A DNA stretch of 64,000 nucleotides from Methylococcus capsulatus (GTDB lineage Bacteria > Pseudomonadota > Gammaproteobacteria > Methylococcales > Methylococcaceae). Both the position numbers and the translations under genes were made by a program. The notes beneath the pieces were generated by a model. The model had not been told where the DNA came from. It saw nothing but the letters and a program-made list of their open reading frames with translations, and searched no databases. The stretch lies in contig NZ_CP104311.1 of the NCBI RefSeq assembly GCF_036864975.1, forward strand, positions 3,227,513 through 3,291,512, given 5' to 3'. Below, in pieces: positions 1,563-8,774 of the stretch (positions are counted from its first letter, which is position 1; the number at the start of each line of letters is the position of its first letter).

Positions 1563-4376
1563 ATGAGCACTCAATCCGGACTATTTCCAAACAGCACCGC
1601 ATTTTCCGAAGACAACGCCGGTTTCGTCGAAGCACTGTATGAACAGTACCTGCGCGATCCGGAAGCCGTGGCGCCGGACTGGCGCGAGAAATTCCGCGCC
1701 TTTCGCGAAAGCAGGGCGGCCGAACCGGTCACTCCGCTCCCAAGCGGCGATGTCGACCGCGCCGTGCGCAAACAGGCAGCGGTGGACCGACTGATCAACC
1801 AGTATCGCACGCACGGCCATCTGTCGGCGGACAACAATCCGCTCAAGCCGGCTTTGCCTTCGCGCGAGCTGGACCCGGCCCGCTATGGCCTCGACGCCAG
1901 CGACATGGACACCGCGTTCTACGTGGACGTTCTGCAGAGCGACGAGAAGCTGCCGCTCAGAGACATTCTGGACACCCTGCAGGCAACCTACTGCCGGCAC
2001 GTCGGCGTCGAGTACATGCACATCATGGACTCCGAGATCCGGGATTGGCTCCGGCGGAAACTGGAAGGATCGCGCGCCCAAGACCGTTTCGACCGGGAAC
2101 AGAAGCGGGAGATACTGCGCCTCCTCACCGCGGCCGAGGGCATTGAGAAATACCTGCACCGGAAATACGTGGGGCAGAAGCGGTTCTCGCTGGAAGGCGC
2201 CGAAAGCCTGATCCCCCTGCTCGACGAACTGATCCAACGCTGCGGCGCCAGGGGCACACGGGAAGTCGTGCTCGGCATGGCGCACCGTGGCCGCCTCAAC
2301 GTCCTGATCAACATCCTCGGCAAGAAACCCGAACTGCTGTTTCGCGAATTCGAAGGTACCGTGAGCCAGGAAGGAGAGTCAGGCGACGTCAAGTACCACC
2401 TGGGGTTCTCCTCGGATGTGGCGAGTCCGGGCGGCCCGGTCCATCTGACCCTGGCGTTCAATCCCTCGCACCTGGAAATCATCGACCCTGTGGTCGAAGG
2501 GTCGGTACGGGCGCGCCAGGACCGGCTCACGGGCGATGCCGAGGCCGCCGTGGTGCCGGTACTCATTCACGGCGATGCCGCCTTCGCCGGCCAGGGCGTG
2601 GTCATGGAAACCCTCAACATGGCCGAAACCCGCGCCTATACCACCGGCGGCACGATACACATCGTTATCAACAACCAGATCGGCTTCACCACCAGCAATC
2701 CCTTCGACGCCCGCTCCACCCTGTACTGCACCGACGTCGCCAACATGGTCCAGGCGCCGGTGTTCCACGTGAACGGCGACGATCCGGAGGCCGTGCTTTA
2801 CGTCACCCGGCTGGCCGTCGACTACCGCATGAAATTCCGCCGCGATGTGGTGATCGACCTGCTTTGCTACCGCCGCCATGGCCACAATGAAGCGGACGAA
2901 CCAGCGGTCACCCAGCCCTTGATGTACCGCTTCATCCGCCGACATCCGCCGGTCCGAGCCTTGTACGCTGAACGGCTCATAGCTGAAGGCGTCGTCGCCC
3001 CGAACGAGCCGGCGCGAATGGATCAGGATTACCAGGACGCTCTCGCCCGAGGCGAGCCCGTGTCCAGACCGCTGCTCGGCGACTCCGCCGGCTATGTCAA
3101 GACCCGATGGGACCACTACCGGGGTACCGACTGGACTGCAGCGGCTGAAACCGGCCTGCCGATGGCGGACCTCGTCGCCATAGCAGAACGGATGACGGCA
3201 CTGCCCGCCGGCTTCGAAGCACACGCCCGGGTCGAAGCGATCCATGCCGCACGCCGGCGGATGGCGGCCGGCGAACTTCCCGCCGACTGGGGATTCGGCG
3301 AGATCCTCGCTTACGCCTCCCTGCTGTGGGAAGGCCGCAATGTCCGCCTGACGGGCCAGGACGTCGGACGCGGCACTTTTTTCCACCGCCATGCCATCAT
3401 CCACGAACAGCGTACCGGAGAGGTCTACGCCCCGCTCCAACACCTGAAGGCCGGCCAGGGGAGATTCGACATCTACGATTCGCTGTTGTCCGAAGAGGGT
3501 GTACTGGGCTTCGAATACGGCTACAGCAGCTCGGAACCCGACACTCTGGTGATCTGGGAAGCCCAGTTCGGCGACTTCGCCAATACTGCCCAAGTCGTGA
3601 TCGACCAGTTCATCTCCTCCGGAGAAACCAAGTGGGGCCGACTGAGCGGGCTGACCCTGCTGCTACCACATGGCTACGAAGGACAAGGTCCCGAACATTC
3701 CTCGGCCCGTCTGGAACGCTATCTCCAGCTCTGCGCCGGCGACAATATGCAGGTCTGTGTGCCGACCACCCCAGCTCAGATTTTCCACCTCCTGCGGCGC
3801 CAGCTGCTGCGTCCGTACCGCAGGCCGCTGATCGTGCTGACACCCAAGAGCCTGCTACGCCACAAGCTGGCCACCTCCAGCCTCTCCGAGTTCGCCCAAG
3901 GTAGCTTCCGCTGCGTGATCGACGAGACCGACCGCCATGAACCGGCCCGGATCACCCGCCTCGTGCTGTGCGCTGGCAAGGTCTATTACGACCTGCTGGA
4001 AACCCGGCGGCGGTACCAGCTGAACCATGTCGCCCTGGTCCGCATCGAGCAGCTTTATCCGTTCCCGCGAAAGGACTTTCTGGCCATGCTGGAACGCTAT
4101 CCCAATCTGCAGGAACTGATCTGGTGCCAGGAGGAGCCGGAAAACCAAGGTGCCTGGCATCAAATCAAACACCGTTTCCCCGGCATTCTGGACCGTTCCT
4201 TCGACATCGGCTATGCCGGTCCGCCGATGTCCGCCGCGCCGGCGGTCGGCCATTTCCGCCAGCATATCGAACAGCAGAAAATGCTGGTGGAACGTGCCCT
4301 CGTTCTTCCTGTCTCTCCCACTGCGACGACGGAAATAGCCCATGCGCATCGAAATCAGTGTTCCTCCTCTGCCTGA
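1563..4376 (+). CDS. sucA: 2-oxoglutarate dehydrogenase E1 component
   Basis: Thiamine-diphosphate-dependent E1 of the 2-oxoglutarate dehydrogenase complex (TCA cycle, cytoplasm), which decarboxylates 2-oxoglutarate and transfers succinyl to the lipoyl group of E2. 937 aa, near the usual ~930. Seen: N-terminal [43 protein letters not shown] and the C-terminal RIEQLYPFP segment. The start at 1563 is chosen because AAGGA at 1549-1553 lies 9 bases upstream and the protein then begins like other SucA; an in-frame codon at 1497 has no such support. The 3' end overlaps sucB by 35 bases. No E3 (lpd) follows, so E3 must be encoded elsewhere. Confidence 0.96.
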
Positions 4377-5487
4377 GTCGGTCAGCGACGCCACACTGCT
4401 GGACTGGCACAAGAACGTCGGCGAGACGGTGGGCAAGGGCGAAAACCTGGTCGACCTCGAAACCGACAAAGTGGTGTTGGAAGTTCCGGCCCCGGAGGAC
4501 GGGGTGGTGGTCGAACTGCGGGGCGGCAAGGGCGATGTCGTGGTCAGCGGCCAGCCGATCGCCGTGATCGACACGGCGGTTCGGCCCGCCACACCCGCCG
4601 CCGCCAGGGCGACGGACAAACCGGCAGCGGTGCTGAGCCCGGCGGTACGCCGCTTGGTTGCTGAACATGCCCTCGATCCGGCGCTGATTCCGGCCAGTGG
4701 ACGTGACGGACGGCTGACCAAACAGGATGTGCTGGATTTCTTGGAAACCAAACCCGCTGCAGAGAAGGTACGCCTGCCGCCCGGCGGGCGAAGCGAACGC
4801 CGGGTACCCATGAGCCGACTGCGCGCCAGGATCGCCGAGCGCATGCTGGAAGCCCAGCACCGGACCGCCACCCTGACCACCTTCAACGAGGTCAGTCTGC
4901 AGAAGGTGTTCGACATCCGCAACGCACACAAGGCCCGCTTCGAGCAGCAGCATGGCATCAAACTCGGCTTCATGTCGTTCTTCGTCAAGGCTTCGGTGGA
5001 AGCGCTGCGCCGATTTCCCATCGTTAATGCTTCCCTTGAAGGCGAGGAAATCGTCTACCATGACTATTACGACATCGGCATCGCCGTTTCCACGGACCGC
5101 GGGCTGGTCGTGCCGATCCTGCGCGATGCCGACCAGGCCGGTTTCGCCGGGATCGAGAAAGCGATCGCCGAATTCGGCCAGAAAGCGCGCAGCGGCAAGC
5201 TGAGCCTGGACGAACTCAGCGGCGGAACCTTCACCATCACCAACGGCGGCATCTTCGGTTCCATGCTTTCGACGCCGATCCTCAACCCACCGCAGAGCGC
5301 TATCCTCGGCATGCACGCCATCAAGGAACGGCCGGTGGTGGAAGACGGCCAGATCGTGATCCGGCCCATGATCTATCTGGCACTGTCCTATGACCACCGT
5401 CTCATCGACGGCCGTGATGCGGTCTCCTTCCTTTTTACCGTCAAGGAACTGCTCGAAGATCCCATCCGCCTCTTGCTCGAAGTGTGA
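4342..5487 (+). CDS. sucB: 2-oxoglutarate dehydrogenase E2 (dihydrolipoamide succinyltransferase)
   Basis: Core acyltransferase of the 2-oxoglutarate dehydrogenase complex, 381 aa. Domains in order: one lipoyl domain (residues 1-77, lipoyl Lys in [11 protein letters not shown]), a flexible linker, a peripheral-subunit-binding segment ([17 protein letters not shown], about 93-133), then the catalytic domain with [13 protein letters not shown] holding the active-site His and Asp. The start at 4342 is kept, despite the 35-base overlap with sucA, because the lipoyl fold begins at once ([12 protein letters not shown]). The PESV/DA signature and the sucA partner favour succinyl- over acetyltransferase. 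Ends 31 bases before the convergent ppk1. Confidence 0.95.
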
Positions 5488-5518: not shown

Positions 5519-7876
5519 TCACACGGCTTTCTTGAGCGCCTCCAGCAGTTCCGCCTGGGCATCGCAATGGTGGACGTCGGGCAGCCGCTGATAGCTTCCG
5601 TCCGCACACAGTTGCCAGGAGTGGCAATCGTCTTTCAAATAAAGCTCCAGATCATTGCGTACCCGCTCGGCCAACTTCTTGTTTTCGATGGGAAAGCAGG
5701 TTTCCACCCGGCGGAACATGTTGCGCGCCATGAAATCCGCGCTGGCCGCATAGATCTCGGGCTCCCCGCCGTTCTCGAAGCAGTACACACGGCTATGTTC
5801 GAGGAACCGTCCGACGATGGAGCGCACCTCGATGTTCTCCGAAACACCAGGAATGCCAGGCCGTAAGCAGCAGACGCCGCGCACGATCAGTTTGACCTGC
5901 ACCCCCGCGCACGAGGCGCGGTAAAGCGCACGAATCAGCTTGGGCTCGACCAGAGAATTGATCTTGATGACGATCCTCGCCGGTCTTCCCTCCTTCGCAT
6001 GCTCGATTTCCCGCTCGATCTTGCGGATCAGGGTCTTGTGGAGGGTGAACGGCGACTGCAACAGCTTGTGCAGCTTGCCCATCTTGCCCAGGCTGGTGAG
6101 CTGAACGAATACCCGCTGCACGTCCTCACCCAGCGCCTTGTCGGAAGTCATCAGGCCATAATCGGTGTACATCCGGGCGGTGCGGGGATGGTAATTGCCG
6201 GTACCCAGGTGGGTGTAGTACCGCAGCGTCCGCCCTTCCCTGCGCAGGATCAGCAGGATCTTGGCATGGGTCTTGTAGCCGACGATGCCGTAGACCACCT
6301 GTACGCCGGCCTCCTGCAGGCGGGTGGCAAGCGAAATGTTGGCGCGTTCGTCGAACCGTGCCAGGAGTTCCACCACGGCGGTCACTTCCTTGCCGGCCCG
6401 AGCGGCCCGCGCCAGCGCATCGACGATGGGCGAATCCGGTCCGGTGCGGTAGAGCGTCTGCTTGATAGCGACCACCTGCGGATCGTCGGCGGCCTGACGC
6501 AGCAGATCAATGACAGGGATGAATGACTCGTAAGGATGGTGCAGCAGGATATCCTGCCGGCGCAAGACCTCGAAGAAATCCTGGTGCCCCGTGAGCTGCG
6601 CTGGCCACCCCGGCGTGAAGGGCGGATATTTGAGGTCCGGCCGGTCGACCAGATCATAGATCTCGCGGGCCCGGCTCAGATTGACCGGCCCGTCCACCCG
6701 ATAAAGGCGGTCCTCGCCGAGGCCGAACTGGCTCAGCAGGAACTCGACAACTGCGTCCGGGCAGTTGTCGGCCACCTCCAGCCGTACCTCGTCGCCGTAG
6801 TTACGGCTCGCCAGTTCGCCTTCGACCGCCTGCAGCAGATCATCGATTTCTTCCTCGTCCAGAAACAGATCGCTGTTGCGGGTCACCCGGAACTGATAGC
6901 ACCCTTTCACCTTCATGCCGTGAAAAAGGTCGTCGACAAAGGCATGAATGATGGACGAGAGGAACACGAAGTCGTGCAGCCTACCGCCGGTCACGCTCTT
7001 CGGCAATTGGATGATGCGCGGTAGCGCCCGCGGCGCCTGCAGGATGGCGAGATGGATGTTGCGACCGAAGGCATCCTTCCCGGCGAGGGAGATGATGAAA
7101 TTCAGGGCTTTGTTGAGGGGACGTGGGAACGGATGGGTCGGATCCAGCCCGATCGGACTGAGAATCGGCGCCAACTCCTCCTCGAAGTACCGCCGCAGCC
7201 ATTTGTGCTGGGCATCGGTCCAGTCGGAACGGCGGATGAAGCGGATGCCTTCGGCTTCCAGCGCGGGCAGTAACTCCTGATTGAGCACGCGGTACTGCTC
7301 AGCGACCAGTTCGTGGGCGCGTTCGCTGATAGCGGCAAGAACTTCCTGCGGCGTCATGTTGTCCGGCTCAGTGTGCGCCGCCCCGAGTTCTGATTTTTGC
7401 AGCAGGCCGGCGACCCTGATTTCGAAGAACTCATCCATATTGGAACAGGCGATGCTCAGGAAATTGAGCCGTTCCAGCAGTGGCGTCCGTCCATCCTTGG
7501 CCTGCTCCAGTACCCGGCGGTTGAACTCCAGCAGGCTGAGTTCCCGGTTCAGGAAGCCTCGTGAATCGTCCAGGCCGACGTCCTCCGCGGAAAGCTCCCC
7601 CACCCCGGCCAGACCCGTGGCGGCGGCCGATTCTTCGCGCCCTTTTCCCATGTCACCCACCATGAATTTGGCGGCCCTGACCATACGCTGGGCTTTCTGC
7701 CGGCTCAGGCCTGGAATCTTGGTGAGCCGGCCGACGTCGGCATCGGCAAGCTCCTCGACCGAAAAAATCCCGTGCTCGGCCAGCATGATCCGTGTGGACT
7801 TGCTGAGACCTTTGACTTTACTGATGACCAAACGTCCTTCCTCCTTCTCCGTTCTATTGCCTTCCACGGTCTCCAT
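5519..7876 (-). CDS. ppk1: Polyphosphate kinase 1 with N-terminal helix-hairpin-helix domain
   Basis: Reversible synthesis of inorganic polyphosphate from ATP. From about residue 107 this is canonical PPK1: GFLNRELSLLEFNRRVLEQA, NMDEFFEIRVAGL, KTHAK with the autophosphorylated His, and a second His in FLEHSRVYCFENGG. Unusually, residues about 17-73 form an extra module with two GLS-type hairpins (VKGLSKSTRIMLAEHGI and KIPGLSRQKAQRMVRAA), a helix-hairpin-helix pattern typical of DNA-binding or DNA-repair proteins, joined by a ~30-aa linker. The start is the ATG at 7876, sharing one base with the msrB stop (TGATG); a TTG one codon upstream is also possible. Coupled behind msrB. Confidence 0.93.
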   Translation of the reverse strand: METVEGNRTEKEEGRLVISKVKGLSKSTRIMLAEHGIFSVEELADADVGRLTKIPGLSRQKAQRMVRAAKFMVGDMGKGREESAAATGLAGVGELSAEDVGLDDSRGFLNRELSLLEFNRRVLEQAKDGRTPLLERLNFLSIACSNMDEFFEIRVAGLLQKSELGAAHTEPDNMTPQEVLAAISERAHELVAEQYRVLNQELLPALEAEGIRFIRRSDWTDAQHKWLRRYFEEELAPILSPIGLDPTHPFPRPLNKALNFIISLAGKDAFGRNIHLAILQAPRALPRIIQLPKSVTGGRLHDFVFLSSIIHAFVDDLFHGMKVKGCYQFRVTRNSDLFLDEEEIDDLLQAVEGELASRNYGDEVRLEVADNCPDAVVEFLLSQFGLGEDRLYRVDGPVNLSRAREIYDLVDRPDLKYPPFTPGWPAQLTGHQDFFEVLRRQDILLHHPYESFIPVIDLLRQAADDPQVVAIKQTLYRTGPDSPIVDALARAARAGKEVTAVVELLARFDERANISLATRLQEAGVQVVYGIVGYKTHAKILLILRREGRTLRYYTHLGTGNYHPRTARMYTDYGLMTSDKALGEDVQRVFVQLTSLGKMGKLHKLLQSPFTLHKTLIRKIEREIEHAKEGRPARIVIKINSLVEPKLIRALYRASCAGVQVKLIVRGVCCLRPGIPGVSENIEVRSIVGRFLEHSRVYCFENGGEPEIYAASADFMARNMFRRVETCFPIENKKLAERVRNDLELYLKDDCHSWQLCADGSYQRLPDVHHCDAQAELLEALKKAV

Positions 7877-8331
7877 CAATCGAACAGTTTCAGATACTCC
7901 TCATATCCGGCCTCCGCCAGTTCCTCTTTGGGGATGAAGCGCAAAGCGCCGGAATTGATGCAATAGCGCTTGCCTGTCGGCGCCGGCCCATCATCGAAGA
8001 CGTGTCCCAGATGGGAGTCTCCATATCTGCTGCGCACTTCGGTCCGGACCATCAGGTGGGAATGGTCGCTCAACGTGACGATGTGATCGGGCTCCAGCGG
8101 CCGGGTGAAACTCGGCCAGCCCGTTCCCGAATCGAATTTATCGATCGAGCTGAACAACGGCTCACCCGACACGATGTCCACGTAGATGCCTTCCCGATGG
8201 TTGTCCCAGTACGGATTGGCAAATGGTCGTTCGGTGCCGTTTCCCCGGCAGATCGCGTACTGTTCCTCGCTCAGCCGTTCTTTGATCTCTTCCTCCGTCG
8301 GCTTCCTGAAGCTTTCTCGGTCCCAACCCAT
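7876..8331 (-). CDS. msrB: Peptide-methionine (R)-S-oxide reductase
   Basis: Reduces the R epimer of methionine sulfoxide in oxidised proteins. 151 aa, a single MsrB domain: [31 protein letters not shown], and [11 protein letters not shown] with the catalytic Cys. The CxxC zinc pair present in many free MsrB enzymes is absent (SGEPLFSS occurs there), so this is the zinc-free form. The start at 8331 is supported by GGAG about nine bases upstream and by protein length; a longer in-frame extension runs into the riboswitch region and is not credible. Translationally coupled to ppk1 (TGATG). Confidence 0.93.
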
Positions 8332-8416
8332 AGCCGTGTCTCCGTCGAAATCTAAAAAAAATTCAATTATTGAACATTGGCGTTCCGGCTTCCATCCGCT
8401 ACAATCCGCGCCCTTC

Positions 8417-8622
8417 ACAGGTGTCGACCGGCGGACTAGCCGGTCGGTGAAACGGGAAGCCGGTGCGGATACCTTATCCCAATCCGGCGCTGCCCCCGCA
8501 ACGGTGATTGAGCCGGAACGTATCAAACGTTCCGAGGCGGATTCTTTATGCCACTGCGCGCATGCGCGGGAAGGCAGAACACCGCCCGGCGTCACGCCGC
8601 TCATCAGCCCGGAGACCGGCCT
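8417..8622 (+). promoter_or_regulatory. Cobalamin (B12) riboswitch aptamer
   Basis: The leader of the TonB receptor gene holds the conserved pieces of a cobalamin riboswitch in order: AAACGGGAAGCCGGTG near 8450-8465, GCTGCCCCCGCAACGGT near 8489-8505, GCCACTG and GGGAAGGC near 8550-8575, and the B12 box AGCCCGGAGACCGGCC at 8606-8621. Family knowledge: adenosylcobalamin binding represses downstream uptake genes. Boundaries are approximate. Confidence 0.93.
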
Positions 8623-8642
8623 GCGATTGACATGAAGACCCC

Positions 8643-8671
8643 GCGGAGGGCGAGGGTCGCGCCCCGCTTTT
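8643..8671 (+). terminator. Candidate intrinsic terminator in the riboswitch expression platform
   Basis: GCGGAGGGCG (8643-8652) can pair with CGCCCCGC (8660-8667) through a bulged 8-bp GC stem, directly followed by TTTT (8668-8671). It lies between the aptamer and the receptor start, where a B12-controlled terminator would sit. A second perfect 6-bp hairpin (8689-8694 with 8701-8706) follows. The U tract is short, so translational control remains possible. Confidence 0.45.
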
Positions 8672-8774
8672 GCCGGCAAACTACCCACCCTGCCGACCCG
8701 GGCAGGCCTTTCGACCTCCGCGAAACCGTTAACGCCATGCGGGTGTGCATGGCCATCCCATGCAGAGGTCCCAC

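Follow-up and report, generated by a model that had tools for sequence, protein, structure and literature searches.

Polyphosphate kinase 1 (PPK1) of the Methylococcus family carries an N-terminal helix-hairpin-helix (HhH) domain, and this HhH-PPK1 is a genuine and conserved domain architecture that is new for a known enzyme. The gene lies in a 64,000-nucleotide stretch of the Methylococcus capsulatus genome, referred to as the window. HhH and enzyme are encoded in one frame, the HhH is under as strong a constraint as the catalytic part, and close relatives of it outside the fusion sit on small proteins with lysine-rich tails, some of which are encoded beside ppk1. A role of the HhH in tethering polyphosphate synthesis to nucleic acid is plausible from these analyses.

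Domain architecture of HhH-PPK1

The open frame spans 5519-7879 on the minus strand (Table 1). In a Pfam search of this frame, HHH_5 comes first and is followed by all four PPK1 domains. HHH_5 (PF14520) matches residues 5-55 of the 770-residue protein with about 49 bits against a gathering cut-off of 27 (E 6.8e-13), in keeping with the N-terminal two-hairpin HhH and subsequent linker proposed by the first-pass annotation. The PPK1 model TIGR03705 matches over its full length with 957.5 bits against a curated cut-off of 465.85. His522 and His541, which we take from E. coli PPK1 to be the catalytic pair, are invariant across 26 aligned fusions; the enzyme is intact with both histidine motifs, as had been claimed. 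Compared with polyphosphate kinase 1 (TIGR03705 / NF003918), the protein shares all four Pfam domains and the two histidine motifs, but differs in about 90 added N-terminal residues with the HhH. The second PPK1 of the same genome (C1:1200708-1202777) has no HhH domain. A full-length model was too poor (pLDDT 59.4) to locate the HhH relative to PPK1 and was left out of the evidence. The upstream MsrB frame has about 130 residues N-terminal of its SelR domain, which may reflect an internal start or a further domain.

Table 1. Features of the HhH-PPK1 locus, in window coordinates
Feature	Position	Strand	Remarks
HhH-PPK1 gene	5519..7831	-	encodes 770 aa; start probably TTG; stop at 5519-5521
HhH domain, residues 5-55	7667..7819	-	Pfam HHH_5; hairpins VKGLSKSTR and IPGLSRQKA
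Linker, residues 59-90	7562..7657	-	acidic, net charge -6, poorly conserved
PPK1 core, residues 93-751	5579..7555	-	Pfam PP_kinase_N to PP_kinase_C
H522, KTHAK motif	6266..6268	-	active-site histidine (role as in E. coli PPK1)
H541, YTHLGTGNYH motif	6209..6211	-	active-site histidine (role as in E. coli PPK1)
GGAGG, Shine-Dalgarno-like	7840..7844	-	8 bases ahead of the TTG start
MsrB (peptide-methionine (R)-S-oxide reductase) gene	7876..8688	-	same-strand upstream neighbour, 44 bases from the ppk1 start
2-oxoacid dehydrogenase acyltransferase (sucB-like) gene	4342..5487	+	neighbour, convergent with the HhH-PPK1 gene

The start codon is most likely the TTG at 7831-7829. Of 32 fusion rows, which include some duplicate genomes, 29 (25/28 and 4/4) have a TTG, GTG or ATG six codons ahead of the KG in the first hairpin, and the three exceptions (L028, L029, and L031) have a GTG at -9 instead. 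The Methylococcus rows, that of the window included, have a further ATG 15 codons upstream of the TTG. In L008 and L034, an in-frame TGA between this ATG and the start column excludes the earlier start. Given the conserved start column and the TGA codons, the protein most likely has 770 residues, of which 5-55 form the HhH; the frame and the fusion of the first-pass annotation thus stand, while its start is moved to the TTG 15 codons further in.

Pooled over 15 related pairs, which have rows in common and are not independent, pN/pS is 0.061 for the HhH, 0.082 for PPK1, and 0.373 for the linker. The HhH module is therefore translated and constrained as strongly as the catalytic part. A late start near residue 105 or an artefactual start, which would leave the module untranslated, is ruled out by this equal constraint and by the conservation of the HhH at the protein level across the family.

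Distribution and history of the fusion

Of the 38 genomes sampled from the Methylococcus family (f1), 31 contain HhH-PPK1. An assembly quirk is ruled out, as the HhH and PPK1 share one frame in all of these 31. Among the remaining seven, three have the HhH in a frame broken off at a contig end (G026, G030, and G035), two have a PPK1 without HhH and without an HhH relic upstream of ppk1 (G009 and G010), and in two no fusion was seen (G017 and G033).

The HhH profile was searched against 201 genomes of the order (A3), 369 of the class (A3), and 398 of the phylum (A4), which make up 942 distinct genomes (G000-G941), with the best 150 or so rows of each search ranked by score. The same domain order was found in none of the 904 genomes outside the family among the matches listed; a strongly diverged fusion may rank below these. 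A further search (A2) against the 369 class genomes, with a query joining the HhH to the beginning of PPK1, gave listed matches spanning both parts only in the two Methylococcus genomes of the sample; outside Methylococcus, no listed match starts before model position 44, and the best has 116 bits. Among frames matched by the HhH, six long ones, five outside the family (G069, G646, G509, G626, and G877) and a second frame of G012, do not match the PPK1 profile beyond its HhH part. Pfam identifies those of G069 and G646 as NusA and that of G626 as a DNA ligase. Frames of about 505 residues were assigned to NusA by size and resemblance, the two longer ones being confirmed by Pfam. In searches of an open-access literature collection, no paper on an HhH-polyphosphate kinase fusion was found.

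In a tree of the PPK1 core, a supported group (100/99) unites the 20 fused rows with the two HhH-less rows of the family. The tree holds 43 of 48 chosen rows, since the motif was not found in L119, L036, L053, L057, and L064. The label 'fused' requires three changes on this tree, two of them forced by starred branches, and the history may consist of one gain and two losses of the HhH. The two rows in which a separate HhH gene lies next to ppk1 pair together (98/93).

A different N-terminal fusion was observed in the sister family f8, where PPK1 frames of 943 and 922 residues (L159:959-3787 in G179 and L163:536-3301 in G148) have an N-terminal SAM-methyltransferase domain, as checked with Pfam on both. 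PPK1 frames of 923-946 residues occur in 11 of 16 rows of genus g31 among the matches listed.

Fold and charge of the HhH domain

A model of the HhH alone, built from an alignment of 22 rows, has a pLDDT of 88.2 and adopts the predicted (HhH)2 fold, which agrees with the fold expected at first pass. The ten best Foldseek matches include RAD51-type rows with TM scores of 0.83-0.87, and acidic repeat 2 (AR2) of NusA has 0.82; no match reached E 0.001, for which the small size of the domain is blamed. A second structural comparison gave Z scores of 11.6 for RAD51 (61 residues, rmsd 1.7) and 11.5 for NusA and RadA, with 61-62 residues aligned; the tool itself cautions that in helical bundles a Z below about 13 may reflect no more than a common arrangement. 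As modelled, the HhH fold is as near to the N-terminal domains of RAD51 and RadA as to NusA AR2. A profile search against the PDB placed the C-terminal repeats of NusA on top (2.6e-12), followed by RAD51/RadA, eL32, and UvrC, and TIGR01954, the NusA C-terminal repeat model, scores 22.5 bits, below its curated cut-off of 48.15. The HhH thus shares the (HhH)2 fold and a significant sequence match with the RAD51/RadA N-terminal domain and NusA AR2 (HHH_5, PF14520), but is fused to a polyphosphate kinase and is basic, whereas the NusA repeat is acidic.

Across the 26 fusions, the net charge of the HhH is +2 to +7 (+6 in the window protein) and that of the PPK1 core is -2 to -14. The linker has 28-41 residues and a net charge of -8 to +3, with no lysine-rich tail. 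The third hairpin position is Ser, Thr or Asn in most fusions and Gly in some lineages, so that the classical GhG is weakened in most of them. In the DNA-contacting GhG of HhH hairpins, this third position is held by the second Gly (PMC3783174).

HhH-K proteins with lysine-rich tails

Outside the fusion, the domain occurs across the phylum sample in small proteins in which the HhH is followed by a lysine-rich tail, here named HhH-K. They were tallied in at least 37 genomes of 17 families. The tails of all 37 tallied proteins were inspected and are mostly +13 to +46 in charge; that of L171 is broken off at a contig end. Many HhH-K hairpins have GIG, unlike most fusions.

Some HhH-K genes adjoin polyphosphate genes. 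In two families related to f1, an HhH-K gene of 143 codons (L113 in G039) or 147 codons (L114 in G037) lies immediately upstream of ppk1; the proteins match HHH_5 with E values of 7e-12 and 3.8e-12, and their tails are 37% Lys with net charges of +17 and +19. In G055, ppk1, ppx, and HhH-K follow one another on one strand. The same order is found in G067, with ppx split, at L158:6388-8979, by a transposase-like gene that has HTH_38 and rve. In G521, HhH-K is followed by ppx, which converges on ppk1. HhH-K lies within 5 kb of ppk1 in 5 of 37 genomes (four families) and within 21 kb in 9 of 37 (six families), one of the nine being G462, whose PPK1 match is in two pieces that are both below the cut-off. 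With the three families of the order counted once, a crude uniform model gives the linkage within 5 kb a binomial p of about 0.003, which is suggestive, not proof. As a rough control by eye, the distance between the NusA-type HhH and PPK1 exceeds 20 kb in 13 of 13 near-complete genomes (G002, G003, G004, G010, G012, G016, G017, G018, G019, G021, G029, G043, and G059).

A position beside ppk1 as a general rule for HhH-K is ruled out, as 28 of the 37 genomes, some represented by short contigs, have no linkage within 21 kb. G463 and G664 have an HhH-K and no PPK1 match. Polyphosphate genes are absent among the HhH-K neighbours examined in four genomes, which encode an aldehyde dehydrogenase, a TPP enzyme, and a HlyD/MacB-type exporter (G311, L175), an ABC transporter, MscS, and a PLP enzyme (G434), a lytic transglycosylase and UPF0149 (G503), and an FAD oxidoreductase and an AMP-binding enzyme (G463).

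The HhH-K tails of family f119 have long KGKGKG runs (L165, L166, and L169), and in G311 the HhH-K gene sits between the aldehyde dehydrogenase and MacB-type exporter genes. In family f127, gene sizes and order around HhH-K are similar in two genera (L187:6925-7269 and L190:9450-9815); the neighbours in L187 are an ABC transporter with a substrate-binding/permease fusion, an MscS channel, and a Cys/Met PLP enzyme. Two proteins encoded away from ppk1 and kept outside the tally of 37 (L224:1665-2390 in G687 and L225:1098-1805 in G722) have a helical-looking N-terminus, a middle rich in Lys, Ala, and Pro, and a C-terminal HhH with HHH_5 scores of 39.8 and 36.3 bits. They resemble the AlgP/PhaF type with an HhH added; the phasin match was obtained for one only and is below the cut-off.

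Possible roles of the fused HhH

The HhH fold is known best for contacts with nucleic acid or protein. We lean, with less than even confidence, towards a basic HhH that anchors PPK1, and hence polyphosphate synthesis, to nucleic acid. The HhH would contact chromosomal DNA or possibly RNA, and the flexible acidic linker would keep PPK1 and the nascent polyphosphate at the nucleoid, with the enzyme itself standing in for the lysine tail as the polyphosphate holder. This anchoring is favoured because of the basic charge, the fold resembling the RAD51 N-terminal domain, and the lysine-tailed relatives encoded beside ppk1 or ppx in some genomes; from these we infer DNA binding and tethering by the fused HhH, and the role of the lysine tail. 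The first-pass annotation had also considered a DNA-repair partner, to which nothing found points. In PMC10990931, the N-terminal lobe of RAD51 is described as binding the DNA of nucleosomes, with Lys64 and Lys70 placed close to the backbone. In the ungapped profile match, Lys70 corresponds to Lys46 and Lys64 to Pro40 of the window HhH, and all 22 rows of A4 have Lys or Arg at the Lys46 position. Because E. coli NusA also has Lys at this position, Lys46 supports but does not prove a DNA contact and does not discriminate between the two domain types. Against anchoring also stand the NusA repeats, a protein-binding domain, as top PDB sequence matches, the equal structural closeness of NusA, Z scores within the range of the tool's caution, the lack of a lysine tail in the fusion, the replacement of the second hairpin Gly by Ser, Thr or Asn in most fusions, and the HhH-K genomes that have no ppk1 linkage within 21 kb or no PPK1 match.

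The main rival to nucleic-acid anchoring is a NusA-like protein contact, in which the HhH would dock like AR2 onto a transcription factor, RNA polymerase or a partner in the degradosome, so that PPK1 is recruited to complexes of transcription or RNA decay. We consider it rather unlikely, even though the NusA repeats match as closely as stated above in sequence and are structurally as near as RAD51, an AR2-SuhB protein complex is among the listed structural matches, and the best-matching NCBIfam PPK1 model is titled RNA degradosome polyphosphate kinase. The fused HhH is basic, whereas the aligned E. coli NusA stretch has a net charge of -7 by our count, and lysine-rich tails on the non-fused relatives suit the binding of a polyanion better than docking. 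A basic domain attached to an enzyme that makes a polyanion, and lysine-rich relatives adjoining ppk1/ppx, would also suit an HhH that binds the growing polyphosphate chain or contributes an oligomer contact and thereby alters processivity or the nucleation of granules, independently of nucleic acid. The PPK1 core and nearly all linkers are acidic, however, such a role departs from the contacts for which the fold is best known, and the full-length model is too poor for a docked position, which leaves this role improbable. That the HhH is a functionless passenger kept by chance is very unlikely: G009 and G010 demonstrate that the domain can be lost, but its constraint equals that of the catalytic part and it is kept in most genomes of the family.

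HhH-K and HhH-PPK1 might further be two forms of one undescribed tether between chromosome and polyphosphate that is widespread in Pseudomonadota. We regard this wider proposal as doubtful, if conceivable. The HhH would hold the nucleoid, and the polylysine tail, or PPK1 in Methylococcaceae, would hold polyphosphate. HhH relatives on lysine-rich proteins beside polyphosphate genes of some other bacteria hint at such holding of polyphosphate to the chromosome, and make HhH-K a new candidate family for polyphosphate organisation.

Comparison with known granule proteins

The sections of PMC9239181 on polyphosphate granules state that how and why they associate with the nucleoid is so far unclear. 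In these sections, AlgP of Pseudomonas aeruginosa is a DNA-binding H1-like protein that is found with polyphosphate granules and required for their even spacing, and its function as a granule-chromosome tether is the authors' speculation (PMC9239181). Its N-terminus is described there only as predicted helical, and its tail consists of KPAA repeats. The proteins reported here and the AlgP/PhaF type of H1-like granule proteins have in common a proposed link between a polymer granule and the chromosome, and the lysine-rich tail is common to HhH-K and the AlgP/PhaF type. HhH-K is similar to AlgP in plan but different in family, and the HhH tether, if true, would be a second solution beside AlgP and unrelated to it. 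With the natural covalent fusion of an HhH to the synthase, and free-standing relatives adjoining ppk1/ppx in some lineages, it might be possible to abolish tethering in a simple setting while leaving catalysis untouched. Compared with AlgP as described in that source, HhH-PPK1 has an HhH and lacks a long lysine-rich tail, and would represent the covalent version of an AlgP-like plan.
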